Below, piece after piece: positions 4,001 to 18,860 of a stretch of 18,860 nt of DNA (position 1 is the stretch's first letter; each line of letters starts with the position of its first letter). The DNA comes from an uncultured Planctomycetaceae bacterium (GTDB lineage Bacteria; Planctomycetota; Planctomycetia; Planctomycetales; Planctomycetaceae). The stretch covers positions 1-18,860 of the forward strand of contig CAIJTL010000024.1 in NCBI GenBank assembly GCA_903823545.1, written 5' to 3'. Under the pieces are notes generated by a model, which worked only from the letters and a program-made list of their open reading frames with translations, had not been told where the DNA came from and made no database searches. Both the position numbers and the translations under genes were made by a program.

Positions 4001-6573
4001 GCCGCCGTGTTCGCATTCGCGAACAAATCCTGAGCGGTATTCGCCGCGACATCGACGGTGATGTTCGACGTTCCGGTCGGAGTGACGACGAGTGTGTAAG
4101 TGTCGGCGTCCACTGCCGTGAAAGTTCCCTTGGTCGCATTGCCGATCGTGACGTCGCTGGTGCCGAAGCCGGTGACAGGCTCGGTGAACTGTAACGTCAA
4201 CGTGACGGCACTGCCGTTGGTCGCCGCTGGATTGGAATTGATTGCCAACGATGGGACGTTTCGCTCCGACGTGACTGAGGCACTGGTCGAGGCGATGTTG
4301 TTGCCTGCCGCATCCGTGGTGGAATTCGCACCGACGGTGGCCGTCACCGTTCCGTCGTTGGTCGGCGTGACTTCGAGCGTGTAGGTGTCAGAATCGACCT
4401 CTGTGAACGTTCCCTTCGTGCCATTGACCACCGTGACGTCGCTGGTAACAAACCCGGTCACCGCCTCGTTGAATTGGAATGTAAACAGGATCGGGCTGGT
4501 GTTGGTGTTGCCGCTATTCGGCGTGATTGCGACCGTCGGGGCAACGTTGTCGAACGTGACCGTCGCGGTACCACCAGTCGCGTTCGCGTTTCCAGCGAGG
4601 TCCGTCACCGTACTGCTGCCGACCGTGATCGTCACCGGCCCGTTGCTCAGGCCGCTCGACGAGACGAACAGTTCGTAGGTGTCGGCATCCACGGTCGTGA
4701 AACTGCCAAACGATCCTTGCGAGAGAGTGATGTCCGCAGTTGAGAAGCCCGTCACCGCCTCGCTGAATTGAAACGTGAAGGTGATGCCGAACCTCGTGCT
4801 TGTTCCGTTTGGAGAGATCGCCAGTGTCGGGGCAACGTGATCCGAGTTGACCGTTGCGGACGCGGTCGGGTTCCCTTCGTTGACGACGTTGGACGCCAGC
4901 GAGGCCACGACCGCTCCGTCGGCAACCGGCGTCACCACGAGCGTGTAGTTCCTCGCATCGACCGCCGAGAAAGTCCCCTTCGTGCCGTTCGTTACGGTCA
5001 CGTCGGACGCGGTGAAGCCGGTCACGTCATAGTTGAACTGGAACGAAAACGTGATCGTCGCAGCATTCGTGAATGTGTCGTCCGGCGAGATCACGACTTG
5101 CTGCGCGAATGTCTGCGACTCGAACGCTCCGATATCGACGAACGTCGCGAAGACGCGGCTGAAACCGCTCCCGCGTTGGTCTGTCGTGAGTCCGCCCGGA
5201 ACGAGCGCGTTGCTTCCCGCGTTGATCGCCGGACTGCCGGTCAGCAGCGCGTGCGTCATCGACGCCCCGCCGTTGTTCGCCAGCGAACCAAGCAGCGGAC
5301 TCACGCCGATTTGATTTCCGTTGATCCCGTTGGCCAAGCCCCCCGCCGAGCCGGAGTGGCCGATGATGTTGTAAGAGCTACCGGATGCCGCCGACCCGCT
5401 AAGGTCGCTGGCCGTCGAACCGGTTCCGACGAAGTTCCCCGCAATGATCGTGTTCTTCAGCGTGACCGCCGCACTTTGAAACATCGCCACTGCTCCTCCG
5501 AACGAAGCCCCGTTTCCATCAGAGTCCGAGCGGTTGTTCGCGACGGTGCAGTTTGTCATCGTCACCGAAGAGTTGCTGAAAATCGCCGCTCCGCTGTCGG
5601 TTGCTGAGTTTCCAGAGAACGTGGAATTCGTCAGCGAATAATCCCCTGTGCCCGCCAAGGCTCCACCATTCACAGCGGAGTTATTGGCGAAGAGACAACC
5701 GGTTGCCGTGAATTCGGAGTTGATGCTGACGACACCTCCCGAACCGGTCGAGGAGTTGCCGGAGAACGTGCAATCGGTCGCCGTGTAAGTTCCGTTCCCA
5801 CCGATGACCCCACCGCCGCTCGCCGTGTTCGATGAGAACGTGCTCCCCGAAAACGTGTAAGTCCCGTTGCCGATCGTGACTCCTCCGCTGCTGGTTGCCG
5901 AGTTATTCGACACTGTGCAGTTTGAAAAAGAGACGGAACCGTTCGTCGCGGACACCCCACCGTTGACTGCCGAGTTGCCTGTGATCGTGCAACCAATAAA
6001 GCTGACGGTGGCGTTCGTGTCCACGACTCCGCCGTCACCCGTGGCCGAGTTCCCACTCAGCGTGCAATTGCTGATCGTCAGATTCTCACGATTGACGATC
6101 GCTCCGCCGCTTCCCGTCACGCTTCCGTTCTTCAGCGTCAGCGAGGAGATCGTCACCGCCTTCGTCCCGCCCGTCCCATCGACCGTGAAAATCCGCGACG
6201 CCTGCTGCGCATCAATGATCGTGTTCGCCGCCCCGTTCCCGGTGATCGTCACGTTTTCCGAGATCGTCATTTGGCCGCCGGTCAGGTCGATCTCCGTCCC
6301 ATTCAGCGACGCATCGAACGTGATAGTGTCCGAGTCGGTATTCGCGTTCGCCTGAGTAATCGCCTCCCGCAAGCTGAGCACCCCGTCGCTGCCATTCACG
6401 ACATCCGACGCAGTCGTCACCACGAATGCCGCCGGCATCTGCCGAGCTTCCAACAACTCCGCCACCCGACTACGAACCTTCAATCCCCGCCGAACTCCCC
6501 GCAGCGAAACAACATGCCCAGATTGACCAAACGCACGACGGACGAACTCACGGAGCCAAGACGAACGAGACAT
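1..6573 (-). CDS. Giant modular surface/secreted protein (beta-helix, Ig-like, cadherin and RTX repeats), partial at C-terminus
   Basis: The frame is open for 2191 codons from ATG at 6573 to the left edge, where it runs off without a stop. The N-terminus lacks a classical signal peptide. It is arginine-rich and has LLEARQMPA at residues 40-48, resembling the LExRxxPA-type motif of planctomycete exported proteins, then DGVLSLREAI at 63-72 (CSLREA-type motif). Residues about 140-350 form a parallel beta-helix of roughly 23-residue rungs with GNSA/NNSA and GGV motifs. Residues about 400-487 match the choice-of-anchor Q pattern (SPLLGSLANNGG, GSPAINAGS, TDQRG, DIGAFES). Residues about 491-1250 hold eight Ig-like repeats with FQFSEAVTGF-type motifs. 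About 1255-1760 are cadherin-like repeats (DREQI, DGGPGTP, GVNDNSPVF). From about 1850 come RTX-like GGxGNDxL repeats. Likely a very large calcium-binding adhesin or matrix protein outside the cell. A 134-nt gap separates it from the upstream permease gene, so it may have its own promoter. Confidence 0.93.
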   Translation of the reverse strand, partial: MSRSSWLREFVRRAFGQSGHVVSLRGVRRGLKVRSRVAELLEARQMPAAFVVTTASDVVNGSDGVLSLREAITQANANTDSDTITFDASLNGTEIDLTGGQMTISENVTITGNGAANTIIDAQQASRIFTVDGTGGTKAVTISSLTLKNGSVTGSGGAIVNRENLTISNCTLSGNSATGDGGVVDTNATVSFIGCTITGNSAVNGGVSATNGSVSFSNCTVSNNSATSSGGVTIGNGTYTFSGSTFSSNTASGGGVIGGNGTYTATDCTFSGNSSTGSGGVVSINSEFTATGCLFANNSAVNGGALAGTGDYSLTNSTFSGNSATDSGAAIFSNSSVTMTNCTVANNRSDSDGNGASFGGAVAMFQSAAVTLKNTIIAGNFVGTGSTASDLSGSAASGSSYNIIGHSGSAGGLANGINGNQIGVSPLLGSLANNGGASMTHALLTGSPAINAGSNALVPGGLTTDQRGSGFSRVFATFVDIGAFESQTFAQQVVISPDDTFTNAATITFSFQFNYDVTGFTASDVTVTNGTKGTFSAVDARNYTLVVTPVADGAVVASLASNVVNEGNPTASATVNSDHVAPTLAISPNGTSTRFGITFTFQFSEAVTGFSTADITLSQGSFGSFTTVDADTYELFVSSSGLSNGPVTITVGSSTVTDLAGNANATGGTATVTFDNVAPTVAITPNSGNTNTSPILFTFQFNEAVTGFVTSDVTVVNGTKGTFTEVDSDTYTLEVTPTNDGTVTATVGANSTTDAAGNNIASTSASVTSERNVPSLAINSNPAATNGSAVTLTLQFTEPVTGFGTSDVTIGNATKGTFTAVDADTYTLVVTPTGTSNITVDVAANTAQDLFANANTAASATITFDNTAPTLEITPNGTSTRSSIFFSFQFSEVVTGFTAADVTLSQGTLGTLTTSDGGKTYTAIVSSSGLTNGPVNVSVASNSVQDLAANANTSGASASVTFDTVAPTVTITPNSGSTNANPIVFTFEFSEAVTGFTVIDVTVTNGTKGTLTAVDVDTYTLNVTPTADGTVTASIASSRFSDTAGNSNSGTTSASVTSDRSAPGLTITPNSGTTNANPITFTFQFTETVTGFDASDITIANGTKGTFTAVDGDTYTLLVTPTANGTVTASVGANAAQDALTNGNAATSASVTSDISVPTLAITPNGTTSNASTLTFTFQFSQTVTGFATGDVTVTNGTKGTFSAVDGDTYTLVVTPTADGAVTVDVGANAAVNSASTGNPAASATVTSDRTAPSFTSSATINANENQTSVVTVTTTDVSSVTYSLNGGADAAKFSISSGGVLTFVAAPNRESPTDSGTNNVYDVIVKATDAAGNTSSQNIAVTVADVNEFDPVLNDATFSIVENSANSTAIGTVTATDADATKTLAYSITGGNTLGIFAINSATGAITVADNTKLDREQISSVVLTVQVTDGGPGTPRTDTAAVTVNITGVNDNSPVFTTSNAISIAENTTAVGTVIATDADLPAQTVTYTITGGADSAKFSLTTGGVLAFKTAPNFESPTDVGANNVYEVIVTANDGSGRTTPRTINVTVTNASEFAPVLNDTTFSIAENSANNTTVGTLATTDGDGTNTFTYSITAGNSLGIFAINASTGAITVASNTNLDREQIASVVLTIQVSDGGPGTPLTDTAAITINVTGVNDNSPVFTSNNSVNVPETKTFVTTVTATDADLLAQTLAYSITGGADQSKFGITTGGVLSFLTAPSFATPTDADTNNVYEVSVTASDNNGHTTTQTINVTVTEIPVYELLVIRINSATSVTVERTLEGNTTTETLTGSTALLLDDFATAVDFELPATNDAGVTFADVTGADGLMRFTGTNLRTVTFNVTHATSFLVHGNGGNDAIRISSLDAAFNASIELQGDAGNDTLDVSALSRTSKLVGGLGNDVLKGGTGNDTLIGNDGNDSLTGGTGTDIVVETLSGVVTLSGSALKATTGNDSLSGIEQVSLTGGSSADKFDANAAPATMSVTLIGNGGNDTLIGGAANDRLDGGANDDSLVGNAGNDLLNGDEDNDSLTGGAGLDSLFGGNGTDRVIEIGNFNFTLTNASLLSGNGTDSLDSIDAASLTGGASANTLNVSAFTKGSTTLLGGGGNDTLIGSNAGDVLNGETGDDSITGNDGDDVINGGAGNDKLFGGNDDDSLTGDAGNDSFDGGSGTDRVVEIGNVNFVITAAGLT
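1300..2820 (-). repeat. Cadherin-like coding repeats (about five, with an internal two-domain duplication)
   Basis: About five cadherin-like domains are visible. Two near-identical types alternate: one begins FDPVLNDATFSIVENSAN or FAPVLNDTTFSIAENSAN and contains LGIFAIN, LDREQI and DGGPGTP; the other begins NSPVFT and contains GGADSAKFS or GGADQSKFG followed by NNVYEV. The duplicated pair is offset by 621 nt (gcgttcc at 1644 and at 2265), which is 207 codons. This indicates duplication of a two-domain unit. Cadherin domains typically bind calcium and mediate adhesion. Confidence 0.8.
2824..5100 (-). repeat. Eight bacterial Ig-like coding repeats with a three-domain super-period
   Basis: Eight repeats of about 95 residues share ITPNSGxTNxxPI, FQFSEAVTGF, DVTVTNGTKGTF, VDxDTYTLxVTP and a closing SASVTS(E/D) or ATVTFD. 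They resemble the Big_12-type Ig-like family. Domains 2-3-4 match domains 5-6-7 one to one: both 2 and 5 have the unusual LSQG and SSSGL(S/T)NGPV variant, both 3 and 6 follow with AVTGF and TKGT, and 4 and 7 close the unit. ccgctatt at 3647 and at 4511 are 864 nt apart, equal to three 96-codon domains. Confidence 0.82.
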
Positions 6574-8506: not shown

Positions 8507-9382
8507 TCATTCGGAAGAGGTCGTGCGCCGATCGTTGCTCAGAACAAGCGACAGCAAACTATCGTCTACGGAAACTTTTCGCGAGCGGTACTTATGGCGG
8601 TGCAGCCACTCGGACGCACGCTGATAAAATCGACCGGCCACAGCTTTCGTCAGCTTCTTCCCGTTCCACAAAGCTTGCTCGCGAAAGACTGTCATGGGAT
8701 CTGCGGAAACCAGCTTCGCAGCCTTTGTCGCCGGTGTGTGATCAACGATCGGCAAGCGTCCGGCAATCCACATCGAACCATGCTTGAACCAGCGACAAAC
8801 CGGCTCGCTGTTGAACAAGATTTTCAACCCCGCTTGCTCCGCAGCCGTTGCAACTCGTGCTGAATAGAAGCCGCCGGGGACTGAGCCGCAAAATACTGGC
8901 TCTCGCAAAATGTCAGACAGGATCGCTGACGACTCAGCCCATTCTGCTTGCAGTTCGCGATCACTCAATTCGTCGATCCGTCGCGGATGCGAACACGAAT
9001 GAGAACCGATGACGTGACCTCGTTCATGAAGTTCCAGAATCTGCGCGACTGACAAAAAACCAGATTGGCCGATGTAGTTGGTCGGCACGAAGAAGTTCCC
9101 ACGCCATCCAAATGCTTCGAGTCGCTCAGAGATTTCGGTGATCGCCGACACTCCTGCATCGTCGAACGAAAACAAACCGGGACATTGACGGTTCGAGGCT
9201 TCTCGCAATAGTTCGCGCGCCGTCGCAACCGTCACGTTTCGACAAGTGGCGATCGCAAAGAGATGCGCATCAAACCTGTCGCACGTCAGCTTGTAACGAT
9301 TGGCAACCGCACCGCAGAAGCCGCTCGAATCCAATTGTCCTGTCGGTACGACGTCATGATAAAGCAGGGTGGCAGCTTGCAT
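8507..9382 (-). CDS. Polysaccharide deacetylase (NodB-like, carbohydrate esterase 4 type)
   Basis: A 291-residue protein beginning with LLYHDV (residues 6-11), which is typical of polysaccharide deacetylase families. The metal and catalytic motif is FSFDDAG with Asp74-Asp75, followed by FFVPTNYIG (97-105). The second motif is GSHSCSHP with His128 and His132 as likely metal ligands, and motif 3 is PGGFYS (169-174). These are the NodB-domain signatures for metal-dependent removal of N- or O-acetyl groups from amino sugars or peptidoglycan-like substrates. No signal peptide is evident, so it may act on a cytosolic lipid-linked or nucleotide sugar intermediate. The start overlaps the formyltransferase gene by 29 nt, so both modification enzymes are expressed together. 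The exact substrate is unknown. Confidence 0.87.
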   Translation of the reverse strand: MQAATLLYHDVVPTGQLDSSGFCGAVANRYKLTCDRFDAHLFAIATCRNVTVATARELLREASNRQCPGLFSFDDAGVSAITEISERLEAFGWRGNFFVPTNYIGQSGFLSVAQILELHERGHVIGSHSCSHPRRIDELSDRELQAEWAESSAILSDILREPVFCGSVPGGFYSARVATAAEQAGLKILFNSEPVCRWFKHGSMWIAGRLPIVDHTPATKAAKLVSADPMTVFREQALWNGKKLTKAVAGRFYQRASEWLHRHKYRSRKVSVDDSLLSLVLSNDRRTTSSE

Positions 9383-10166
9383 GATGAATCCGCTGGGCTG
9401 ATCGCTTCCAAGCGAAGTATTTGGTCAACCACGGCTGTCCCCAGACAGCCGTGTGACGTCCTTGTGTCGGAATAGACGAGGCGGTTCCCGCGACGATCTC
9501 TTCCAGCTTGAGCTGAATCGCGTCGAGGTTGGCCGTGACCGCTTTGGTTTGAATGACGATGTGTGAATCGTTGAGCGAATCGAAGTTGCACGAGAAGTAA
9601 CCGTAGACCGGCCCGGTATCGACTCCCGTGTCGATGCGCAACAATGTCACGGCGACCTTCTCTGGTTCACCGTTTGCCAACGCCCAAAAGCAGCCATGAG
9701 CGTTCCGATATTCCGGGCACATCCCCGGATGCAACACGAACGTGCCGTGCCGAGGTATTGAGAACACCTCTGGTTTCAACAGGGTCTTGCAGCGAGCGAT
9801 CATCAAGTCCGGCGCGATCTCTTTCAGAAACGCGCGTGCCTCCGACGAGTTCGGACTATTCGTGTAGCAGATGCGCGGCGCTGTTTGTGATTCGGGATAT
9901 TGCTGCTTCAGCCGCGTCAGCTCAGCCTCTTCCCACGCACGATCTCGTTGAGCCAGAAACATTCGATAGTAAAGTCGGAACGCAGCCACATCCGCGAACC
10001 GCAACAGGCCACTCCGTTGAATCTCCTTGCGCACTCTCTGCCACATCCGCTGCTTCGATTCGCGCAGGACTATGATTCCAGCCAAGTCTGTGAACGAGCC
10101 CATCCAACGAGCCAATCCCACTTGATCCAAGTGAGCCCCGTCGTGGCAAATCAATACGGTCTTCAT
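9354..10166 (-). CDS. Formyltransferase family protein (formyl-tetrahydrofolate-dependent, sugar-type candidate)
   Basis: A 270-residue protein starting MKTVLICHDGAHL. The frame extends 31 codons further upstream to 10259, but ATG at 10166 is chosen because AGGA at 10174-10177 lies 7 nt before it. The core has EIAPDLMIARCKTLL (116-130), then FVLHPGMCPEYRNAHG (143-158), and RIDTGVDTGPVYG (178-189). This is the formyl_transf fold with catalytic His146 and Asp183. The Asn normally two residues before the His (NxH) is Val144 here, in a VLH context. Members of this fold formylate methionyl-tRNA, GAR or amino sugars; as the first gene before a polysaccharide deacetylase, an amino-sugar or surface-glycan role is the best inference. 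It is too short and divergent to be the housekeeping Fmt. Confidence 0.82.
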   Translation of the reverse strand: MKTVLICHDGAHLDQVGLARWMGSFTDLAGIIVLRESKQRMWQRVRKEIQRSGLLRFADVAAFRLYYRMFLAQRDRAWEEAELTRLKQQYPESQTAPRICYTNSPNSSEARAFLKEIAPDLMIARCKTLLKPEVFSIPRHGTFVLHPGMCPEYRNAHGCFWALANGEPEKVAVTLLRIDTGVDTGPVYGYFSCNFDSLNDSHIVIQTKAVTANLDAIQLKLEEIVAGTASSIPTQGRHTAVWGQPWLTKYFAWKRSAQRIHHASCHPALS

Positions 10167-10173
10167 GAGTGCG

Positions 10174-10177
10174 TCCT
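10174..10177 (-). promoter_or_regulatory. Ribosome binding site deciding the formyltransferase start
   Basis: AGGA on the minus strand, 7 nt before the ATG at 10166. The longer upstream reading frame has no comparable site, so the shorter start is preferred. Confidence 0.6.
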
Positions 10178-10250
10178 GTGATGAGGCAATGATTGCCACA
10201 CTACAACGCACGCGCCGTGCCAGACGAGTGATCAATGCTGCGAGCGGCTT

Positions 10251-10363
10251 CGTAGCCATCGCGCTCCGCGTGATGAGCCGGAAGCTTCAGATCGCTAAAT
10301 TTCTGCTCGAATTGTGACCTGTTTGGAGAACTCGGCTCGTCACGCGGAGCGATGACGGCTACG
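10251..10363. repeat. REPIN-like doublet, copy 1 (two inverted palindromic units)
   Basis: The left arm at 10251-10279 reads CGTAGCCATC followed by the core GCGCTCCGCGTGATGAGCC. The right arm at 10334-10363 is its near reverse complement (GGCTCGTCACGCGGAGCGATG then ACGGCTACG), with one indel and a few mismatches. About 54 nt separate the arms. The same two-arm arrangement recurs at 17208-17359 and 18738-18850. Confidence 0.8.
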
Positions 10364-10594
10364 TAGAGTAGCCGTCTGCGATACCACGAAGTCGGCGGTG
10401 CATTCAACGAATGTCGCTCTGTAAGACCCCAGTCCGTGTTGCTAATCTGCAACATCGTTGCGTGGCGTTTGAGAAACAACGCGAACTCTGTTCTCAGCAA
10501 GCCACCCCCGCTGGGCTTGTTTCAGCGTCTTACAGGCATTTGCACGACGCAGTACGGCCTTCCGTTGAAGGTGGTTGTCGTCCAATACCCAAAC

Positions 10595-11104
10595 TCATCG
10601 CCCAACCTTCACAAGCAACGGCTCGATCAATTCGAGTGGCAAGAATGCCTTGAGTTGTTCCGCAGTATTCCCGCGACCGAGGTGCGCAATCTGTTTGATG
10701 AGACTACTGGAAATATGTGAGTACTTCTCGCTCGCCATCAAGAAGACCGTTTCGATCTCTGGGTCGAGAGCACGGTTCGCCAAGGTCATCGTGAATTCCG
10801 TTTCGATATCGGTCAGAGTCCGCACGCCGCGCAGCATGACCGCCGCATCGCAAGACCGAACGAAATTCACAGTCAGCCCTTCAAAGCACTTCACGACCAC
10901 ATTCTTTAACGGTGCAACGACTTGCTGGATCGCTGCCAGTCGTTCATCGGGCGTGAAGAGCGGACGCTTATCGGGATTGATACCGATACCCACCGTCAAC
11001 CGATCAAACAACGCCGCACCGCGACGAATGATGTCGAGATGCCCCAGCGTCAAAGGATCAAAGCTGCCTGCATAAACGGCGTGATGCGGACTCAAATTAG
11101 CCAT
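10595..11104 (-). CDS. coaD: Phosphopantetheine adenylyltransferase
   Basis: A 169-residue protein, normal for CoaD, which transfers AMP from ATP to 4'-phosphopantetheine to make dephospho-CoA, the penultimate step of coenzyme A synthesis in the cytosol. Signatures are GSFDPLTLGHLDII (13-26), which contains the TxGH nucleotidyl-transferase motif, GLTVNFVR (76-83), LRGVRTLTDIETE (91-103) and SEKYSHISSSLIKQIA (125-140). The frame extends upstream to 11134, but ATG at 11104 is chosen because a strong GGAGG at 11112-11116 lies 7 nt before it. The upstream neighbour on the same strand is tRNA-Leu, only 34 nt away, so the two may share a transcript. Confidence 0.97.
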   Translation of the reverse strand: MANLSPHHAVYAGSFDPLTLGHLDIIRRGAALFDRLTVGIGINPDKRPLFTPDERLAAIQQVVAPLKNVVVKCFEGLTVNFVRSCDAAVMLRGVRTLTDIETEFTMTLANRALDPEIETVFLMASEKYSHISSSLIKQIAHLGRGNTAEQLKAFLPLELIEPLLVKVGR

Positions 11105-11111
11105 CAACCCA

Positions 11112-11116
11112 CCTCC
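11112..11116 (-). promoter_or_regulatory. Shine-Dalgarno site deciding the coaD start
   Basis: GGAGG on the minus strand, 7 nt upstream of ATG 11104. It lies inside the longer frame and so argues for the shorter protein. Confidence 0.8.
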
Positions 11117-11138
11117 GCTCGCGGACAATTTCACTTAT

Positions 11139-11224
11139 TAGCCGAAGCGGGAATCGAACCCGCACGCCCCTTTCGGGACCCAGGATTTTAAGTCCTGTGC
11201 GTCTGCCTATTTCGCCATTCGGCC
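11139..11224 (-). tRNA. tRNA-Leu (anticodon UAA)
   Basis: An 86-nt cloverleaf on the minus strand. The acceptor stem GGCCGAA pairs with TTCGGCT (G1.U72, also seen in E. coli tRNA-Leu UAA), with discriminator A. The anticodon arm CAGGA-CTTAAAA-TCCTG gives anticodon TAA. The long class II variable arm folds as CCC-GAAA-GGG, and the T arm is GCGGG-TTCGATT-CCCGC. The D-loop has the leucine-like AATAGGCAGAC. CCA is not encoded. It lies 34 nt upstream of coaD in the same direction. Confidence 0.96.
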
Positions 11225-11474
11225 GGAAGAGGGGCGAATGCTAACAGTGACTTAGTGAGGTGCCAACCGACTCTCGCGTGCTGATCCCTTCGTGAGCGAT
11301 GAAGACCGACCAATTCAAAAAGCCGATTATCGAGAAGGCCAAATCGCATTGGTAAAAGACTTGGCGACGCAAAGGCAGGGGCACTATATTCCCACCTGCT
11401 TTCCGGGGCAGTTTTCCGTCGCGGGCCAGTTTGTAAGTGGTCATTTTTTGCTGCACTGCGGCGTTTGAGGTGTC

Positions 11475-11747
11475 ATGAGCAGTTCATCTTCAGGCAAATT
11501 AGCGGTGGGCTCGCGTGTGCGAGTGAAGGATGGAGTTACGTCTCCGGATTTCCCGGAAGTCTCATTTGCTGGCTGGGCCGCCACAATCGTTGAACTGAGT
11601 GGCAAAAAGCCGAACCAAAAATTCATCCTCGAATTCGACGATGCCGTTATTGCTGCGATGCCGCCGGATTATCTGAAGAAGTGCGAAGAGCAGCACCTGC
11701 TTTACACAATGGCCTGCCTGACCGCCGAACAAATCGAAGCGGCGTGA
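11475..11747 (+). CDS. Small hypothetical protein with SH3/KOW-like N-terminal region
   Basis: A 90-residue soluble protein on the opposite strand from nearly everything else. After a serine-rich start (MSSSSSGKL), residues 11-55 read like a small beta-barrel: VGSRVRVKDGV, then FAGWAATIVEL and NQKFILEFDDA. This resembles the spacing of KOW/SH3-type folds where a basic strand is followed by a GWxGxV turn. A helical C-terminus with CEEQHL and MACLTAEQIEAA follows. GAGG at 11467-11470 is a close ribosome binding site. I do not recognise a named family. The reading frame is well formed and protein-like, so it is probably real. Function is unknown. Confidence 0.7.
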   Translation: MSSSSSGKLAVGSRVRVKDGVTSPDFPEVSFAGWAATIVELSGKKPNQKFILEFDDAVIAAMPPDYLKKCEEQHLLYTMACLTAEQIEAA

Positions 11748-11778
11748 GTTTTTGTCAGTACTTTTTCAAACAAGCACA

Positions 11779-11793
11779 CGACAAGTTTTGTCG
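11779..11793. terminator. Short hairpin between convergent genes (weak terminator candidate)
   Basis: CGACAA-GTT-TTGTCG is a perfect 6-bp stem with a 3-nt loop, between the stop of the plus-strand small gene (11747) and the stop of the minus-strand LRR remnant (11807). No clean T-run follows the stem on either strand, so a rho-independent role is uncertain. Confidence 0.3.
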
Positions 11794-11806
11794 AGCGAAA
11801 GTGGCC

Positions 11807-12363
11807 TCAGGGCGAGATGACTTCGCACTCTGGCAGCGCGACTTTGATTTGCTCAATCATGCTCTTCGACACCGCAGTCCGGCTGAGGTCCGATGGCTTC
11901 AGCGTCTTGACCTGCATGACCGACTCCATTTGCTGGTCAGTGACTTGAGTTCCAGAAAAATCGCGTACTTTTAGTTGAGCGAAAGTGAGCATGCACTTCA
12001 GGTCGGGTCCGAAGACGTTGGAGTCTCGCAGGACCAACTCCGACATGTCGGTTTGCCGAGCGATGAAGCTCAGCGTTCCGGAAGCGAAAACTTGGCTCCG
12101 GTGATATCGACCTTGAGACTCGTGAACGAGCCGCGCGGCAGCAACTTTGCATCGCGGACGAGAATCGCTTCTTCGTCGGAGGTCCGAATGGTGAGCGTCG
12201 CTTTCTTTTCGAGGCTGACTTCAGCAGCGTCATCGGTCGCTACTGAAGAAAACTTATACTCTTCGCGCGGCTCGTTATGAGGTGTTGGAAGAAGCGGTGT
12301 TTTTTTGAGAGAACTCGGATCGTTGGGGTGATAGAACATCGGACGACGTGAAGCGGGAGTCAA
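11807..12363 (-). pseudogene. Leucine-rich-repeat protein gene broken by a frameshift
   Basis: The upstream frame (start 12363, or ATG 12339 giving MFYHPNDPSS) runs through EVSLEKKATLTIRTSDEEAI and SFTSLKVDITGAKF and then stops at 12070. The downstream part continues in another frame as ASGTLSFIARQTDMSELVLR, LKVRDFSGTQVTD, LKPSDLSRTAVS and ALPECEV, ending at 11807. The last motifs (LxxLxxSxTxVxD and a closing ALPxCxV) are the leucine-rich-repeat end typical of planctomycete LRR proteins. The switch maps to the AAAA run at 12087-12090: one extra base would join the frames into a 177-residue protein from 12339. A sequencing error, a true null mutation or programmed slippage would all look like this. 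The 5' end abuts a transposase fragment. Confidence 0.6.
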
Positions 12364-12365
12364 GG

Positions 12366-12602
12366 ATGGCTCGAGTGACGTTTTCAGAGGGTGAGCGGGA
12401 ACAGTTGCGGCGCGAGCGGATTGAGTATCCGCATCCGCGAGTGCAACTGCGAATGGAAGTGTTGTGGCTGATTAGTTGCAGCCAGTCGTATTCGTCGGCT
12501 TTGTCTTCCGCGCCGCTCGCGGGTGTTTCCGACGCGACCGTCGATCGGTACGTGGCCCTCTATCGTGAAGGGGGAATCGAGAGGCTCAAGCAGTTCGAAT
12601 AG
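12366..12602 (+). pseudogene. IS630-like transposase, N-terminal helix-turn-helix fragment
   Basis: A 78-residue reading frame starting at ATG 12366 with GGGAG at 12354-12358. MARVTFSEGEREQLRRER, HPRVQLRMEVLWLIS and AGVSDATVDRYVALYREGGI match the helix-turn-helix region that opens IS630-family and related transposases. The frame stops at 12602 just after LKQFE; the catalytic DDE domain should follow but no trace of it is visible downstream. The segment SYSSALSSAPLAG looks slightly scrambled compared with the usual xYxxxARLAGVS spacing, which suggests decay. It is divergent from the broken LRR gene, so insertion there may have disrupted that locus. Not functional as a transposase alone. Confidence 0.6.
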
Positions 12603-12628
12603 GCTATCCGAGAACCCGTAATTCAGAA

Positions 12629-12701
12629 GGGCGAGGCTCCTGTCGAGCCGCGGAAGTCGTTGGATATCAATCGTAGTATCGGTTCGGCAGGAGTCTCACC
12701 C
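12629..12701. repeat. Imperfect inverted repeat, 21-nt arms with a 31-nt spacer
   Basis: The left arm at 12629-12649 starts GGGCGAGGCTCCTG and the right arm at 12681-12701 ends GGAGTCTCACCC. 17 of 21 positions are Watson-Crick complementary and three more are G.U pairs in plus-strand RNA, so a strong hairpin is possible. It sits just downstream of the transposase fragment and its right arm contains the stop codon of the short minus-strand reading frame 12696-12992. It differs in sequence from the other repeats in the window. Possible roles are a miniature element, an IS-end relic or a transcription terminator. Confidence 0.65.
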
Positions 12702-12992
12702 TCCCTTTTCAAACTGCCTCTTAAAGATCCAAGAATGAGCGGGAGCGGGCATCTCTATTGGCGGCACAACATCATTGATTCCCGTAGCGACCACCGCAGC
12801 AATGTCTGAATAGACCAGCGTCAAAGCCTATGCCGATCGAGTTGTCCACTCCCGCACTGGCACCGGCGTCTCAAACGGGGTCATCAAGTTTGTCACTTCT
12901 TTAGTCCAAAACGATTCCGCAGCTAGAACACCTTCCGGAACATCAGACCTCTGCTGGTTTTGACAATTGGCGAGCGAGGTTTGGGTTGCCAT
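12696..12992 (-). pseudogene. Possible short degraded gene with an internal stop
   Basis: From ATG at 12992 the frame reads MATQTSLANCQNQQRSDVPE, continues through AAESFWTKEVTNLMTPFETP, and meets TAG at 12828-12830 after 54 codons. Past that stop the same frame continues 43 more codons (ALTLVYSDIAAVVATGINDV and onward to FKRQFEKGG) to a TGA at 12696 inside the inverted repeat. Both halves look protein-like, which suggests one gene of about 98 codons with a premature stop. I recognise no family. It could also be chance in a non-coding stretch. Confidence 0.28.
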
Positions 12993-13119
12993 CAAAGAAG
13001 ACATAAAGACTTAGAGCTTATCAACGGAAACTAAAGTCCCCGAAATCGTTCGATCACTCGGAGTTCAGCGCTGGAGTGTCGCGGAGGTTCTCGACAACAG
13101 GCCAACTGGCATCAACAAA
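12993..13119. other. Intergenic, nothing recognised
   Basis: Between the end of the GT2 gene (13120) and the doubtful degraded frame at 12992. I see no gene, hairpin with a T-run or named repeat here. Confidence 0.5.
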
Positions 13120-14274
13120 TCAGGCCGTGCGTTGCCAGGTTGCTCGGAAGCGGCCGCGAAAGGCGTCGCAGAGGGCGGCGATTGTGGTGAGGTTCAGGGC
13201 GACAAACATCAGTTGTGCTCCGAACAGAACCGAGCGTTGGCCGGCGCGTTGAAACAACCAACCGGCGAGTGCTGACAGGTAGAACGTCACATGCAATGTG
13301 AGCAGCACTCCGTAAATTGGATTCGTCGAAAGCAGGACATTGGCAATCATCGCCAACCCGAGCAGCACTGGTGAAACTAAGCGAGCCAGTTTGTGTGAGA
13401 CGAATTCCAACCAAATAGGATTCCGCCACGGAAGCAACCAACCAGGGTGATTGACCATCAACTGAGCCGCGCCAGCGATCGTGCGTCTTTTGCGAATTGA
13501 CTCCTTTGAAGTGGAATCAGACGGCAGGTCGTATGCGATTGCTGCTGGCTCGAAGAGACAACGAGTGCTTGCTGCGATCGCCTGCATCGGGATGACCACG
13601 TCGTCCAAGATTGTCTGCGGTGGAATCGGTCGAAAGAGCGAACGCCGCAGAGCGTACAACGCGCCGGTCGCACCGGGGACACTGCGGAAGCGGCCTTCGT
13701 GTTTGCGAATGAACTTCTCGTACTTCCAATAAATACCGATCCCGTGGGCGGCCGTTGTTGTGCTGTCGGCGGCTTTGAAAACCAGTTCTCCGGAAACAAC
13801 GCCGACTGTTTCGTCTGCGAAGTTCGCGGTGAGTTCGGCGATCGCTCGGCGGTCCAAATCCTGTCGCGCATCTGTCAGCACGATGAGTTCATTCTCGCAT
13901 TGTGGGATCGCCTCATTGAGCACAGAAGGCTTTCCTCGACGTTCCGCGAAAGCGAGGAGTTTGACTCGCGGTTCATTCAGGCTCGCGATGACTTCTGCCG
14001 TGTTGTCGGTTGAGCCGTCGGATGCAACGAGTATCTCTTGCATCAAATGAGCGTCATCGGAGCCGAGCACGCTCGCAATCTTCTGCGGTAAGCGCGTCGC
14101 CTCATTGAACGCCACGATGACGACGGAGATCGGCGACGTGTTGACCTTCTTTTGCGTTCGCAACGGCCAACAGCGAGACATCACAAAGACAAGCACCGGA
14201 TAGCCAACGAAGATGTAAGCGACTCCGATGATGCTGAACCAGAATGTGAGTTGCCAGATCGCGTTATGCGTCAT
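13120..14274 (-). CDS. Membrane glycosyltransferase family 2 (processive type candidate)
   Basis: A 384-residue protein. An N-terminal membrane span covers about residues 8-32, and three or so spans lie in 298-370. The cytosolic GT-A domain has VVIVAFNEA (51-59), ASDGSTDNT (84-92, binding the nucleotide), TDARQDLD (134-141, a DxD-like position), GATGALYALRR (201-211) and DDVVIPMQ (224-231, with the likely catalytic Asp). RKRRTIAGAAQ (261-271) falls where processive synthases carry Q/RxxRW. The topology and motifs resemble chitin/hyaluronan/cellulose-type synthases and GT2 exopolysaccharide polymerising enzymes, so it probably extends or exports a surface glycan from nucleotide sugars. It is the last of four glycosyltransferase genes, 11 nt after the previous stop, so co-transcription is likely. 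Confidence 0.88.
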   Translation of the reverse strand: MTHNAIWQLTFWFSIIGVAYIFVGYPVLVFVMSRCWPLRTQKKVNTSPISVVIVAFNEATRLPQKIASVLGSDDAHLMQEILVASDGSTDNTAEVIASLNEPRVKLLAFAERRGKPSVLNEAIPQCENELIVLTDARQDLDRRAIAELTANFADETVGVVSGELVFKAADSTTTAAHGIGIYWKYEKFIRKHEGRFRSVPGATGALYALRRSLFRPIPPQTILDDVVIPMQAIAASTRCLFEPAAIAYDLPSDSTSKESIRKRRTIAGAAQLMVNHPGWLLPWRNPIWLEFVSHKLARLVSPVLLGLAMIANVLLSTNPIYGVLLTLHVTFYLSALAGWLFQRAGQRSVLFGAQLMFVALNLTTIAALCDAFRGRFRATWQRTA

Positions 14275-14285
14275 GTTGAGTTACG

Positions 14286-15818
14286 TCAGTGATTGGAGTT
14301 GCGATCAACGGGGGCTGAGGCCACTTTATTTGCGACTCGGGTGTGACTGTGCGAGGGCCTCACGACGACGTGGCGTTGATCGCGGGTTTCGGTTCGTCCC
14401 GTTACGGCATCGAACAAGTGTGCGAGCTGCTGTGTTAGTTGTCGCCGCTCAAATTGTTCGGCGTTATGTAGACCGACAGGAAGTGGAACGCCGAGTCGCT
14501 TGCGTTCGATCTCGTCGCCAAGTCGTTGAGCGAGTCCGGCAATGTCGCTCGGTGCGTGGATGTAGCCGAGCGGACAATCGCTTAACAGATCGGCCACTTC
14601 ACCTGGCGGCGTAACTGCGAAGATCGGCTTCCGGACGGCCATGTATTCAAACAGCTTTCCTGGAACGACTCGCCCTACATCGGGTAGATCCGCCAGCAAC
14701 AGGCAGAGTCCGTCAGACGTCTGCATCAGCTTCACCGCCTCGTCATGATCAACATACGGTTGCCGAGTCACTCGACACGGTAAGCCGTTGAGTTGATCAA
14801 GCAATTCATCTTGCGGACCGGTGCGACGGCCAGCGAAATGCAGTTCCAGTCGAGCGGCCAGTTCCGGCGATTGCTCGCTGAGCAACTGAACCGCGCGAAC
14901 GATCGGTTCGACGGTCGTCAGATTCCACAGGGTACCGACATACGAAAGCTTGTAGGTTTCGCGGTCCGTTCCAGCTTCTAAGACTGGATCAAGCAACGGA
15001 GTTTTGCCGCTCGAATGGAGATCGTCCGCGTCGTAGCCGTTGTAGATGTGCGTCACGAGCGGACGAGTTCCCGCTTCGGTGGCCACTGAACGCAAAGCGT
15101 CGGCGCTGTGTTGAGTCGTCGCGACGAGTGCGGCGGCTGAGCGAACGACGCGGCGTTGCATCGCGCTTTGTAACCAGCGTGTGAAGAAGCCCTGCTGACG
15201 ATTCTCCCAATATGCGTTGCTGATTCCCCATTCGTCGCGATAGTCGAGCACCAGTGGCAGTCCGGTTCGACGACTCAACTCCGCTCCGACCAACAACGAC
15301 GAAAACGGCGGAGCGGTCACGAAGATGGCGTCGTGTTTCTCTTGCGAAAGAATTCGTAAGCCCGATTCGATCGCGTGATGATTCCACAACACTTGTGGAT
15401 CAGGTTGCAGCACGAGATTCACTGCACCGCGCAGAAATCGTTTCGCATACGCGGTCACCGCAGCCAGCATTCCTGAAGACTTAGGTGCCGCGTCGGATTT
15501 GGATGAGGCTGCACCGTTCGCAGAAACAGTTACGTTGGAGTTACTCGCCAGGATGCTTCGTTTGAAGGCGTAGCCGGGCTCCAGTGTTCGAGCCCGAACA
15601 ATCTTTGTCTGAGGCGGAATGTCAGACAGGAGGGACTCATCAGTGAGTGGGACGGATGGGTTCTCGGTGGTGAGGACGGTCGCTTCCCAACCGAATTCCG
15701 GCAAGTACTTCACAAACTTCGTCACTCGCTGCACGCCAGCACCACCGACGGGTGGAAAGACATAAGCGACGACCAAGACTCGTTGCGGATTTTTTGAATT
15801 TAAATTCGATTCCAACAT
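14286..15818 (-). CDS. Glycosyltransferase, GT4/GT-B type
   Basis: A 510-residue cytosolic or membrane-associated GT-B enzyme. The N-terminal Rossmann half begins RVLVVAYVFPPVGGAGVQR (13-31), the acceptor-side glycine loop of GT4. DYRDEWG (192-198) and THIYNGYD mark the linker, then YVGTLWNLTTVEP opens the donor half. GRVVPGKLFEYMAVRKP carries the donor-binding Glu region. A Ser/Ala/Asn-rich insert at about 91-116 is likely a flexible loop. The C-terminal tail after DAVTGRT is basic and His-rich with no recognised fold. The frame extends to GTG 15833, but ATG 15818 has GGGAG at 15824-15828, 5 nt before it, and is preferred. It sits 47 nt after the next gene upstream. Donor and acceptor sugars are unknown. 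Confidence 0.88.
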   Translation of the reverse strand: MLESNLNSKNPQRVLVVAYVFPPVGGAGVQRVTKFVKYLPEFGWEATVLTTENPSVPLTDESLLSDIPPQTKIVRARTLEPGYAFKRSILASNSNVTVSANGAASSKSDAAPKSSGMLAAVTAYAKRFLRGAVNLVLQPDPQVLWNHHAIESGLRILSQEKHDAIFVTAPPFSSLLVGAELSRRTGLPLVLDYRDEWGISNAYWENRQQGFFTRWLQSAMQRRVVRSAAALVATTQHSADALRSVATEAGTRPLVTHIYNGYDADDLHSSGKTPLLDPVLEAGTDRETYKLSYVGTLWNLTTVEPIVRAVQLLSEQSPELAARLELHFAGRRTGPQDELLDQLNGLPCRVTRQPYVDHDEAVKLMQTSDGLCLLLADLPDVGRVVPGKLFEYMAVRKPIFAVTPPGEVADLLSDCPLGYIHAPSDIAGLAQRLGDEIERKRLGVPLPVGLHNAEQFERRQLTQQLAHLFDAVTGRTETRDQRHVVVRPSHSHTRVANKVASAPVDRNSNH

Positions 15819-15823
15819 GATGA

Positions 15824-15828
15824 CTCCC
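15824..15828 (-). promoter_or_regulatory. Ribosome binding site deciding the start of the GT at 14286-15818
   Basis: GGGAG on the minus strand, 5 nt upstream of ATG 15818. The alternative GTG at 15833 has no comparable site. Confidence 0.6.
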
Positions 15829-15865
15829 GTCACACGGTGACGGCTTCGAGGGGATGTGAAGGAGT

Positions 15866-17182
15866 TCAGCGATTTCCTGTCGAAACCGTGGCCGTGAGAT
15901 TCTCCGATGCAGAGACCGACGTTAGCACGACGCGCAAGCGAGTGGTCTCGGTGTGGATGGTCTCGGTGGGAGCCACTCGCTTGCGCGTCGTGCTAAGATC
16001 GGATTCGCCGCGTAACCGCTGCAGCAGCGCGACTAACTCGTCAGCCGTGTCACGCCAGCTTCGTCGCGGAAACAACTGAGCGGCGGCGAGATACTCCGGA
16101 CGTAACGCTCGACCGATTGCGTTCGCCATCGCCGTTGCATCGCGAATGGGAACAAGCTCGGCGAAAGCTGGGCCACCGCGTGAATCAGCGATTTCGCGCA
16201 CGCTACCGACATCTGTCGAAACGAACGGACGTCCGCACGAGACCGCTTCACGCAAGACGTTCGGCAAGCCTTCCGACCAACTCGCCATCACCATCAAGTC
16301 CGCTGCGCGATACCAATTCGGTAACTCGGATTGCGATTGAGGCCCAATGAATCGGACGAAGTCATTCAATCCGCGCCGATCAACGTCTCGCTGAATGGCC
16401 CCTCGTTCCGGCCCGGCGCCAACGAGTAATAATTGCAACTTCGGGATTCGTTGTTGAGCCAAATCGAATGCTTCGATCAGTGTGTCGAGCCCTTTAACAT
16501 CGACCATGCGACCGACCCACAGCAAATACTTGCGATCGGTTGGCAGTGATAATTCCTGTCTTGCATCGGCCTGACTTCCTGGATGAAACAGTTCGTCATC
16601 GACTCCTTGATAGATGGTTGCCACTCGTGAGGGATCAGTTCCGAGGTCAATCACTGCCTGACGCAAACCGTTGCTGACCGTCATGACGGCCGACGATTCT
16701 CGCAAGACTCGTTCGATCTTCGGTCGTCGCCTACGATCGCGAGGCAACAACAAAATGTCCGAACCGCCGACGAGGACCACGCTCGGAATCTTGGCTTCTT
16801 GAGCGACTCGTAATCCCACTTCGCCATCGGGATGAGCCCAGTAACTCACAACCGCGTCCGGCTGAAATTCTTTGACGACCGATCGCAGATGGCGACCAAC
16901 CGACAGCCATTGCCAATCGCCATAAAGGTGTCGACCAACGCCTGGCGTGTAGAAATACTTCGGATAAGTCGCCGTTAAGCCGGTTGTTTCACGCACCCAA
17001 TCATCAGCGCCGATTCGATCTGACTGCGAACCGCGTGACCGCCAAACATCAACAAATGACCTCGGGGCAACGACTCGCACGTCATGCCCAATGGCAAGTG
17101 CCCGACGCAATTCCAAATTGAATGTCCCAGCGATACGCGCGGTCCCGTGTGGAAAAGTCGAGCTGTAGAAAAGGATGCGCAT
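15866..17182 (-). CDS. Glycosyltransferase, GT4 type, with a repeat-derived C-terminal tail
   Basis: A 438-residue GT-B enzyme. The N-terminal half starts MRILFYSSTFPHGTARIAGT and the SYWAHPDGEVG segment (113-123) lines the acceptor site. The donor half opens YLLWVGRMVDVKGLDTLIEA (219-238) and LLVGAGPERG (252-261), and the EX7E motif is Glu304 and Glu312 in SEGLPNVLREA. This is the PF00534/GT4 pattern, a retaining transferase using a nucleotide-sugar donor. The conserved protein ends near LVALLQRLRGES (about 394). The last 45 residues are unlike a GT: residues 396-421 are encoded by a perfect 24-bp inverted repeat and its spacer (15922-15996), so the tail looks acquired by insertion. Upstream gene 17356-18537 and downstream 14286-15818 are on the same strand. 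Confidence 0.9.
   Translation of the reverse strand: MRILFYSSTFPHGTARIAGTFNLELRRALAIGHDVRVVAPRSFVDVWRSRGSQSDRIGADDWVRETTGLTATYPKYFYTPGVGRHLYGDWQWLSVGRHLRSVVKEFQPDAVVSYWAHPDGEVGLRVAQEAKIPSVVLVGGSDILLLPRDRRRRPKIERVLRESSAVMTVSNGLRQAVIDLGTDPSRVATIYQGVDDELFHPGSQADARQELSLPTDRKYLLWVGRMVDVKGLDTLIEAFDLAQQRIPKLQLLLVGAGPERGAIQRDVDRRGLNDFVRFIGPQSQSELPNWYRAADLMVMASWSEGLPNVLREAVSCGRPFVSTDVGSVREIADSRGGPAFAELVPIRDATAMANAIGRALRPEYLAAAQLFPRRSWRDTADELVALLQRLRGESDLSTTRKRVAPTETIHTETTRLRVVLTSVSASENLTATVSTGNR
15922..15996. repeat. Perfect 24-bp inverted repeat with 27-nt spacer, inside a coding region
   Basis: The left arm at 15922-15945 begins TTAGCACGACGCGCAAGCG. The right arm at 15973-15996 is its exact reverse complement. 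The spacer 15946-15972 contains a partial direct repeat of TCTCGGTG. The element lies in the 3' end of the GT gene 15866-17182 and is translated in its frame without a stop. Its two arms encode similar peptides on both strands (TTRKRV and TRLRVVL), as expected from the palindrome. This is a strong candidate for a dispersed miniature element. Confidence 0.92.
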
Positions 17183-17207
17183 GAGAGAGTCCGTCGTGCC
17201 AAACTAT

Positions 17208-17359
17208 GTAGCCATCACGCTCCGCGTGATGAGCCAATCGCTCTTTAGACTTCCGATCGTGTCTTCATCTCTCGACTCACTTTGCTGTTCATTGAGAAGA
17301 GAATTGCATGGAAAAGTCTTATGAAGCGTTCGGCTCATCGAGCGGAGCGTGATGACTAC
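17208..17359. repeat. REPIN-like doublet, copy 2
   Basis: The left arm at 17208-17235 starts GTAGCCATCACGCTCCGCG. The right arm at 17332-17359 is its reverse complement at 25 of 28 positions. 96 nt separate the arms. The pair fills the gap between the two GT4 genes: the left arm lies 26 nt upstream of ATG 17182, and the right arm contains the TAG stop (17356-17358) of the gene at 17356-18537. Each arm carries its own inner palindrome, CACGC-TCC-GCGTG. Confidence 0.85.
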
Positions 17360-18537
17360 GTACCTGCTGTTTCACCGCGTTCGAAGAGTTCTTCGTACAA
17401 GGTTTCGTAACAACCAATCATGTTGCGGATCTCAAAGTGTTCTTCGACACGCTGCCGACCAAGTAGTCCCATCAGCGTCCAGGAGCCACGGTCGTTGCAC
17501 ATCTCGATCATCGCACGAGCCAGTGCCAGTGGATCGCCATCTGGGACCAGTCGCCCAGTCCGTCCATCAAGAACAACTTCCGGATTACCTCCGACTGATG
17601 TCGTCACAATTGGCACGCCGACCGCCATCGCTTCGAGCAGTGTCAGCGAGACACCTTCCGTGCGAGTGGCCGAAACAAAGAAGCCCGCTTGTGTGAGTAA
17701 CTGCGCGACATCGTGTCGCTCGCCGAGCAGTTCGATGTGGTTGCTCAAATTGAGTTCGCTGATCTTCTTTTCGATCGTTGCTCGCTCTGGCCCGTCACCG
17801 ACGATCTGCAAGCGGAAGTCAGGGACGTGCGGAAGCACTTGTCGCACCGCCTCGATCAACGTCGGGAAGTCTTTTTCTTTCGAGAGGCGTGCCACGCTGA
17901 TTGCTGTCGGTACGAGTTTCGGTCCGACGTACGTAAATCGTTCGAGATTAATACCGTTCCAGATTGCGATGATCTTGTCTCGTGAATGCGGGTCATCAAC
18001 TTGGCAGAGTTGAGCCGCATCACGAGAGACACCGACGATTTGTCGCGTCAATCGGTTTGCAATTCTGAATTGCCACGTTGCTTTCCAACCTTTGCCGCAT
18101 CCGCGACCATGTTGCGTATTCACAATGATCGGAACGCCCGCCAGCTTCGCAGCGAGTGATCCATAGAAATGGGCGTAAGTGTTATGTGTGTGGACGACTT
18201 GAATTCGTTCGGCACGCAACACATTTGAGAGTTCAACGATCGATCGGAGTTTGCGAATCTTCACGCTCTCGTTGAGAACTCGCACGGGGCAACCTGCCGC
18301 TCGAATGTCTTCCGCAGGTTGGCCATCTCCCGACAGGCCGACGAATTGCATCGCGAATCGACCGTGATCATGAAACCGACTGAAGTCGACAAGCAGCCGT
18401 TCCAGACCGCCGGTCTTCAAGCTCATACTGACGTGGCAAACGCGAATGACGTCCGACGAAGCATCGGCAACGGTCGAACGATTAACATCGCCGTGAGAAT
18501 GGAGTGGCGCTGAAAGAATCTCGGACGTGTGGGACAT
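17356..18537 (-). CDS. Glycosyltransferase, GT4 type
   Basis: A 393-residue GT-B enzyme from ATG 18537. The frame extends 29 codons to a GTG at 18624 that has no clear ribosome site. The first 30 residues are weakly conserved. The fold begins IRVCHVSMSLKTGGLERLL (31-49), with the GT4 glycine loop. HTHNTYAHFYGSLAA (116-130) is typical of heteropolysaccharide-type GT4 enzymes. WNGINLERF (193-201), SVARLSKEKD (214-223) and IVGDGPER (245-252) form the donor half. EX7E is Glu294 and Glu302 in TEGVSLTLLEAM, and SVGGNPEVV follows. It is the first of the four clustered transferases and possibly sets the first or branching sugar. Its stop codon lies inside a REPIN-like arm. Confidence 0.9.
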   Translation of the reverse strand: MSHTSEILSAPLHSHGDVNRSTVADASSDVIRVCHVSMSLKTGGLERLLVDFSRFHDHGRFAMQFVGLSGDGQPAEDIRAAGCPVRVLNESVKIRKLRSIVELSNVLRAERIQVVHTHNTYAHFYGSLAAKLAGVPIIVNTQHGRGCGKGWKATWQFRIANRLTRQIVGVSRDAAQLCQVDDPHSRDKIIAIWNGINLERFTYVGPKLVPTAISVARLSKEKDFPTLIEAVRQVLPHVPDFRLQIVGDGPERATIEKKISELNLSNHIELLGERHDVAQLLTQAGFFVSATRTEGVSLTLLEAMAVGVPIVTTSVGGNPEVVLDGRTGRLVPDGDPLALARAMIEMCNDRGSWTLMGLLGRQRVEEHFEIRNMIGCYETLYEELFERGETAGT

Positions 18538-18860
18538 GTCACTCACTTTGTCGAACGTCTGTGTTGTTGGTGAAGCAACGAGCCATCGCTTTTGACCAAA
18601 CTTGGCCGCAGAACTGTAGGTCACAATCTGAGCTGTGTTGGCTTAACCGTTGTCAGCCAAGCCGATTCCTCTGCCGTCACAATCGCGACTATCGCAATAA
18701 TCGACGCAATGCGATCGTTAATAGTGCGGCTGTTCTGCTACGGAGCCGTCAAGCTCCGGGTGACGAGCCGAGCGTTCACTCAACTCACAAGGGTCAGTAA
18801 GGCAACACGCGATTGTGAGATCAGCTCATTAAGCGGAGTGTGATGGCTATAGGCTGTTTC
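18538..18860. other. Non-coding right end upstream of the glycosyltransferase cluster
   Basis: No supportable gene. It is the likely promoter region of the cluster, but I cannot place -10 or -35 boxes with confidence. The right part holds REPIN-like doublet copy 3. The last bases on the minus strand (near 18850) could be the stop of another gene lying outside the window. Confidence 0.5.
18738..18850. repeat. REPIN-like doublet, copy 3
   Basis: The left arm at 18738-18769 (CTACGGAGCCGTC then AAGCTCCGGGTGACGAGCC) and the right arm at 18823-18850 (AGCTCATTAAGCGGAGTG then TGATGGCTAT) are degenerate versions of the copy 1 and 2 arms, in the same inverted arrangement with a 53-nt spacer. More divergence than the other copies suggests an older insertion. 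Confidence 0.65.

Follow-up and report, generated by a model that had tools for sequence, protein, structure and literature searches.

Three pairs of inverted palindromes lie within 9 kb of each other on contig CAIJTL010000024.1 of an uncultured Planctomycetaceae bacterium (assembly GCA_903823545.1), raising the question of what these doublets are and how they came to be there. The window, i.e. the whole stretch of 18,860 nucleotides analysed here, is contig C24 of a host assembly of 7.23 Mb in 1707 contigs that is 87.9% complete, and its inverted doublets occupy positions 10249-10365, 17205-17362 and 18739-18853. They are very probably REPINs, short non-autonomous mobile elements built from two palindromic arms of the repetitive extragenic palindromic (REP) kind, each tagged with GTAG and joined head-to-head with the GTAG facing outward. 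The family is probably mobile, its movement presumably being the work of a transposase, and for this partner, a REP-associated tyrosine transposase (RAYT), a clade in related genomes is well supported. The REPIN build is known and repeats of this phylum are known but little described; new here are the link between this arm and a RAYT and a stop-free frame through the element.

Anatomy and dispersal of the doublets

The initial annotation had described three inverted doublets with an inner palindrome in each arm, and all six arms were found within a few bases of where it had placed them. Its spacings of 54, 96 and 53 nt fit when arms are taken as 28-30 nt. A covariance model (R1) built from 28 aligned host arms matched all six, by construction, as these are among the 28. 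The arm consensus is TAC-GTAGCC-RTCACGC-TCC-GCGTGAY-GAGCC, comprising a GTAG foot and a 7-bp stem closed by a TCC loop. Among the 28 arms, the outermost stem pair was A-U in 15, G-C in 12, C-G in one and broken in none, and because it varies yet stays paired, the arms fall into an A-T type and a G-C type. With a GTAG or GTCG foot, a 7-bp stem and compensatory change, the arm thus has the palindromic form with a GTAG-like foot that characterises REPINs. Borders could be read in 64 of 80 arms, the others having been removed by the foot filter; 5' of the foot, T, A and C occupy positions -3 to -1 in 50, 56 and 57 of these 64 host arms and C occupies -4 in 34. The common outer border is CTAC|GTAG, so a C|T often lies just outside the arm. 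Inverted ends and dispersed copies would also suit miniature inverted-repeat transposable elements that share the terminal repeats of an ordinary (DDE) insertion sequence, but here every single arm is palindromic and has a GTAG foot, and the transposase found wrapped in such arms (see below) is of the Y1 HUH type, although no search for a DDE transposase was made. We consider such an origin extremely unlikely.

The first doublet joins an A-T-type left arm on the forward strand (10249-10282; 51.4 bits with R1, one mismatch to the 28-mer consensus) to a G-C-type right arm on the reverse strand (10331-10365; 54.4 bits) across a 48-nt spacer (10283-10330). This length class is common to the copies on contigs C108, C1507, C402 and C780, and the spacers of C1507 and C780 are alike by eye. 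The right arm carries an inserted T (GTCATCGC-TCC-GCGTGAC), which bears out the indel noticed at the outset; as the T-inserted arm recurs in other copies, it is not random decay alone. The first ATG (10257-10259) of the open reading frame (ORF) at 9354-10259 on the reverse strand falls within the left arm of this doublet, and a later ATG is the likelier start. The second doublet has an A-T-type left arm that equals the 28-mer consensus (17205-17238, forward strand; 54.4 bits, no mismatch), a 90-nt spacer (17239-17328) and a decayed A-T-type right arm (17329-17362, reverse strand; 50.6 bits, three mismatches). By sequence and ORF list, the GTAG foot of this right arm supplies the TAG stop codon (17356-17358, reverse strand) of the ORF at 17356-18624 on the reverse strand. 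The third doublet consists of a G-C-type left arm with a decayed foot (18739-18772, forward strand; 48.7 bits), a 47-nt spacer (18773-18819) and an A-T-type right arm that is the most decayed of the six (18820-18853, reverse strand; 38.1 bits). The 28-mer matched three of the six window arms at up to three mismatches and nothing in 200 shuffles. Apart from the one stop codon, the window doublets lie outside long genes according to the ORF list.

When folded as single-stranded DNA, the first doublet (z -6.1) and the second (trimmed to 17209-17358; z -5.6) both beat 200 of 200 shuffles, and the degenerate third folded weakly (z -2.15, equalled by 6 of 200). Two well-folding doublets out of three, the position of two of the three between genes of the same direction and the stop codon provided by an arm would all be expected of immobile regulatory hairpins in RNA or DNA (attenuators, stabilisers of mRNA 3' ends, nucleoid sites) that were selected in place. 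This explanation is very unlikely in our judgement: the main spacer class suggests copying of whole units, nearly the same arm is carried by a RAYT, copies lie within open frames, and orthologous sites differ in the presence of the insert, which has already weakened it.

The REPIN interpretation requires a dispersed family of paired arms, and the host genome contains one. At up to three mismatches 42 host arms were retrieved, and at up to two mismatches of the two-type pattern 50, with none in the reversed or corresponding control; the fit to this two-type pattern is exact for 21 host arms. The covariance model gave 117 matches at E <=10, of which 103 were at E <=0.05, amounting to at least 115 distinct arms, a lower bound as the best 150 of 5460 first-look candidates were scored. 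Rarity of the arms or a predominance of unpaired ones had been named beforehand as speaking against such a family; instead, 82 of the 115 form 41 head-to-head pairs, eight form four abutted tail-to-tail pairs, 25 stand alone and none is in a head-to-tail pair, while by chance about 0.6% of arms would have a neighbour within 200 bp. The four tail-to-tail pairs, on contigs C678, C930 and C1179 of G000, overlap by 6 nt, and the one that was read has the centre GGCTACGTAGCC, resembling two REPINs joined at their borders. By counts made by eye, which are lower bounds, at least nine of the 25 lone arms are within 40 bp of a contig end, in eight cases with the lost partner on the cut side, and at least 13 of all 115 arms are that close to an end against 2.2 expected. 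Judging from this enrichment, the assembly seems to break at these repeats.

Pairing is structured as well. A 24-nt spacer separates 34-nt arms in 14 of the 41 host doublets (40 of which were read as sequence). An A-T arm is paired with a G-C arm in 14 of 18 typable host doublets and in 40 of 56 in related genomes, where typing used 80 of 115 loci; under free pairing this has p 0.008 and 0.00015, respectively, values that are generous given that the copies are related. As for its range, the arm was found at up to two mismatches in 34 of 150 genomes of the family, with 1 to 168 copies each and none in the reversed control throughout, and it is present in 10 of the 12 genomes of the genus. Among the 80 matches listed for named genomes, 78 bear planctomycete labels (Kuenenia being presumed a planctomycete in this tally), and the remaining two are an uncultured bacterium and an entry labelled Verrucomicrobiaceae.

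A candidate transposase clade

A RAYT flanked by the same arms, which the initial annotation had proposed to look for, was not found in the host assembly, but nearly the same arms surround a RAYT-like gene in a related genus. This locus, L360 (genome G014, genus g15, assembly 78% complete), holds an unbroken gene between two doublets and matches the clade profile A1 at E 1.8e-107. One copy of GTAGCCATCACGCTCCGCGTGATG lies on either side of the gene, paired with an inverted partner that has a single base change; compared with the family arm over its first 24 nt, two of the four arms are identical and the other two are off by one base. Across 54 distinct loci of the clade, a GTNG hairpin was present within 330 bp in 47, on both sides in 41 and absent in seven, and head-to-head pairs occur on at least one side in 39 and on both in 20; the flank windows of split RAYT genes, placed by their best piece, are approximate. 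The loop is TCC or TCT in 155 of the 176 hairpins flanking the clade. In a control on the same loci, 97 near windows contained 166 hairpins (146 with TCC or TCT), versus seven (one with TCC or TCT) in 67 distant windows. Distances between RAYTs and between their arms are correlated over 50 loci (Mantel r 0.60, reached in 0 of 2000 permutations). The profile matched at 1e-20 in 8 of 12 genomes of the genus and at 1e-55 in 39 of 170 genomes of the family, at most 17 candidates per genome being scored in the latter search. A further RAYT, L133 in G067, has on either side a doublet of the same build but with a different stem, and its relatives were matched in 18 of 21 genomes searched.

The proteins resemble known RAYTs. 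L360 scores 62 bits (E 5e-17) with NF047646 (REP_Tyr_transpos) and 27.2 bits with Y1_Tnp (PF01797; cut-off 23), for which three of five clade members are above the cut-off, one scores 22.8 and one has no match. In 30 sequences N132, H133 and Y193 are invariant and H135 nearly so, and we read the N132/H133/H135 region and Y193 as the probable HUH and catalytic residues. With the clade profile, the top sequence of solved structure is 4er8, the E. coli RAYT on its REP hairpin (E 0.0075). The predicted model of L360 (mean predicted confidence, pLDDT, 88.8, from 30 sequences) is also nearest to 4er8 by fold (E 3.6e-5, the only match under 0.001), followed by the IS608 and ISDra2 transposases.

Judging from relatives, a RAYT, i.e. 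a single-domain Y1 HUH transposase, would bind one arm, folded into its hairpin on single-stranded DNA, use the GTAG foot to select a nearby C|T and cut there, so that the whole doublet would be moved as a single unit and single arms would be remnants. The host's own RAYT may have been lost or may lie in unassembled sequence.

Several observations weigh against a REPIN family moved by this clade. No excision or transposition event was seen, only orthologous empty sites. A REPIN is expected to share its genome with a RAYT that has the same arms on its flanks, but none was found in the 88% complete host assembly, in which profile A1 gave no clade member at E 1e-20 with 29 of 29 candidates scored; the only trace is L158, a distant fragment (34% identity) located at the end of a contig. 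Among the 21 genomes searched, the arm-bearing G010 (54 arms), G015 (11) and G048 (5) gave no L133-type RAYT match, and in G049 (168 arms) none of the clade-type RAYTs on C82, C337 and C516 has a family arm nearby. At L360, exact identity over 24 nt is limited to two of four arms, the tail past 24 nt differs (TGTGGCC vs TGAGCC), and all four arms are of the A-T type, so that neither doublet is of the mixed kind that the family prefers. The Mantel correlation can be obtained from shared descent alone. REP_Tyr_transpos is the sole NCBIfam family matched, but its equivalog cut-off of 80 bits is not reached by any of five clade members (44 to 62 bits), and the fold match of L360 to 4er8 has a TM-score of 0.42 by query length and a root-mean-square deviation of 10.

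The missing partner could also mean that the doublets were spread long ago by a RAYT since lost from the lineage and that the copies merely decay, a variant compatible with the REPIN interpretation and one we hold to be possible but doubtful. It is favoured by the lack of a RAYT in the host assembly, by the decay of the third window doublet and of many other arms and by an insert in an amidohydrolase gene that is shared by two species and decayed in one of them (G103). On the other hand, there are the 21 host arms that fit the two-type pattern exactly, and arms are enriched at contig ends, so a REPIN-wrapped RAYT is the kind of gene that such an assembly loses.

Other candidates were rejected as partners. 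The host carries four Y1_Tnp genes (L031-L034); the 1.5 kb around each, or as much of it as the contig holds, contains no arm. L031 lies amid palindromes from a second GTAG family (GTAGCCAGGGGC...) together with a GCCACGGAGTGGC repeat (1106-1355 and 2363-2409 of that locus), and L034 adjoins a third repeat; given these neighbours, both genes may serve other families. A scan of 30 further Y1_Tnp loci from five related genomes, and of 20 more fetched by place, showed two near an arm, L103 (~340 bp) and L124 (~1.6 kb), neither of which was accepted because other GTGG hairpins are closer. On C194 of G103, the ~770 bp that separate two doublets are about what a RAYT gene would occupy, but no RAYT lies there; the stretch is part of a gene matching DUF7133 (L273). 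Part of it (541-612 of L191) reads REGEAPAEPSSDG and is perhaps another in-gene repeat family.

Copies inside genes

Some copies lie inside genes and appear to be read as protein. In the host, 5 of 40 doublets are in frames that continue without a stop for 50 codons or more in both directions, and the other 35 are outside long open frames, some of them too close to a contig end to judge. In related genomes, among 76 loci found via an exact arm match, 25 doublets are in frames open for at least 60 codons on both sides, compared with 4.1 expected from shuffled flanks (maximum 8 in 20 rounds). As mirror images of each other, the two arms leave one frame stop-free in both orientations. With a spacer that keeps the phase, this frame reads RSxHAPRDEP, an often serine/threonine-rich spacer and RSAxHAERDGY. 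By tallies made by eye, 20 of 26 open-frame entries in related genomes read RSxHAPRDEP... or a decayed form, 17 of these 20 exiting with HAERDG. The remaining six have a VAITLRVMS-like frame, four of them with a flank of less than 100 codons and one opposite a longer frame. All five host cases enter with (H)APRDEP, two exiting with HAERDG and three in another frame. The preference for the stop-free frame (HAPRDEP...HAERDG) is new here, in a small sample, not fairly drawn.

The genes concerned are recognisable. A Pfam scan of 20 ORFs (15 of the 25 related-genome doublets and all five of the host), all of the HAPRDEP type or decayed and therefore not a fair sample of frames, gave matches in 19, e.g. 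to SMC, Lhr helicase, kinase domains, PurL, amidohydrolase and the DNA polymerase III alpha chain. The match runs across the insert in L269, L278, L287, L005, L021 and L290 and is broken there in L260. Orthologous sites with and without the insert are evidence for REPINs: among the 11 genomes that have an orthologue of the amidohydrolase gene, the host carries the insert, G103 carries it in decayed form and the other nine lack it. The flanking DNA has diverged, and target sites or duplications are unreadable at these empty sites. In a dnaE paralogue, five of the 10 aligned genomes have the peptide (G000, G103, G129, G114 and G083), which is apparently down to one arm in G148 and absent or replaced in the remaining four. 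The insert region varies in length, being shortest in G134 and containing other short sequence in G056, G139 and G150.

These copies might indicate a family adapted to intragenic life, tolerated even in conserved domains, inherited and seeding new protein loops, with a stem shaped jointly by RAYT recognition and harmless translation; we put this forward tentatively, as a minority view. The RSxHAPRDEP...RSAxHAERDGY peptide could then, equally speculatively, be a charged flexible loop.

Known systems and further features of the window

The initial annotation held REPINs to be best known from gamma-proteobacteria and a planctomycete family to be worth describing, which needs correction. The R. 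baltica of that literature is presumably Rhodopirellula baltica. GTAG repeats occur in many phyla besides gamma-proteobacteria, and their occurrence in Planctomycetes, their head-to-head dimers and their intragenic copies were all published in 2013, R. baltica being a host of several GTAG families and many tyrosine transposases (PMC3733652). Those 24 GTAG-tagged REP families share with ours, by their description, the tag, stems of mostly 6-9 bp, short loops, head-to-head dimers, heterodimers, REPtrons, intragenic copies including dnaE2 and TAG stop codons supplied by the tag (PMC3733652). Heterodimers had been noted earlier there and suggested to escape hairpin-cutting enzymes (PMC3733652). 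As in-gene GTAG repeats, dnaE2 included, were reported for other species in the same work, the intragenic phenomenon itself was already known (PMC3733652).

The REPINs of P. fluorescens SBW25 are likewise inverted REP doublets dispersed as a unit, with hairpins, a minority of singlets and a RAYT link, whereas here the phylum, arm, TCC loop and spacer are different, the host RAYT was not found and one third of the sampled related-genome doublets are in open frames (PMC3116915). For P. fluorescens, doublet excision has been reported from reads that connect the two flanks (PMC3116915). E. coli TnpAREP (4er8) shares the Y1 HUH type and the GTAG foot with the planctomycete system; for the enzymes of E. 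coli and Stenotrophomonas, the cleavage site is a C|T next to the REP, in keeping with the CTAC|GTAG border (PMC8266576). The L360 protein has 213 residues versus 165 in 4er8, with extra N-terminal sequence, and the E. coli REP stem is bulged, in contrast to the 7-bp stem and TCC loop of the planctomycete arm (PMC8266576). A class-3 group of such tyrosine enzymes has been placed in Planctomycetes with another foot (PMC6006769). Rickettsia palindromic elements also insert in frame inside genes, their dimers or groups encoding mostly 20 to 30 and up to 82 residues, but are CGTC-tagged and without a known transposase, whereas here the tag is GTAG and a RAYT has nearly the same arm (PMC3733652). 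In the titles and abstract openings of open-access papers, a scope without subscription journals, preprints, figures and supplements, neither this arm nor a planctomycete REPIN-RAYT pair was found.

The anatomy and range of a planctomycete REPIN family are now described, along with a clade from which its transposase probably comes. With dozens of arm-RAYT pairs, varied stems and a mostly conserved TCC-type loop, this clade offers a natural experiment on how RAYTs read hairpins. The in-gene copies and their insert-free orthologues allow a test of whether a mobile palindrome adds a functional or a harmless loop to a DNA polymerase or an amidohydrolase.

The window has other features besides the doublets. 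A tRNA-Leu gene (anticodon taa) is located at 11139-11224 on the minus strand. A separate inverted repeat at 15916-16002, with 30-nt arms that are 93% complementary and 27 nt apart, falls within a glycosyltransferase-like ORF, in its 3' part; a repeat resembling it adjoins the Y1 transposase of host locus L034. Finally, positions 2909-5096 contain diverged repeats ~285-580 nt apart, with six copies of 187 nt at >=66% identity, which probably represent a repeat protein.

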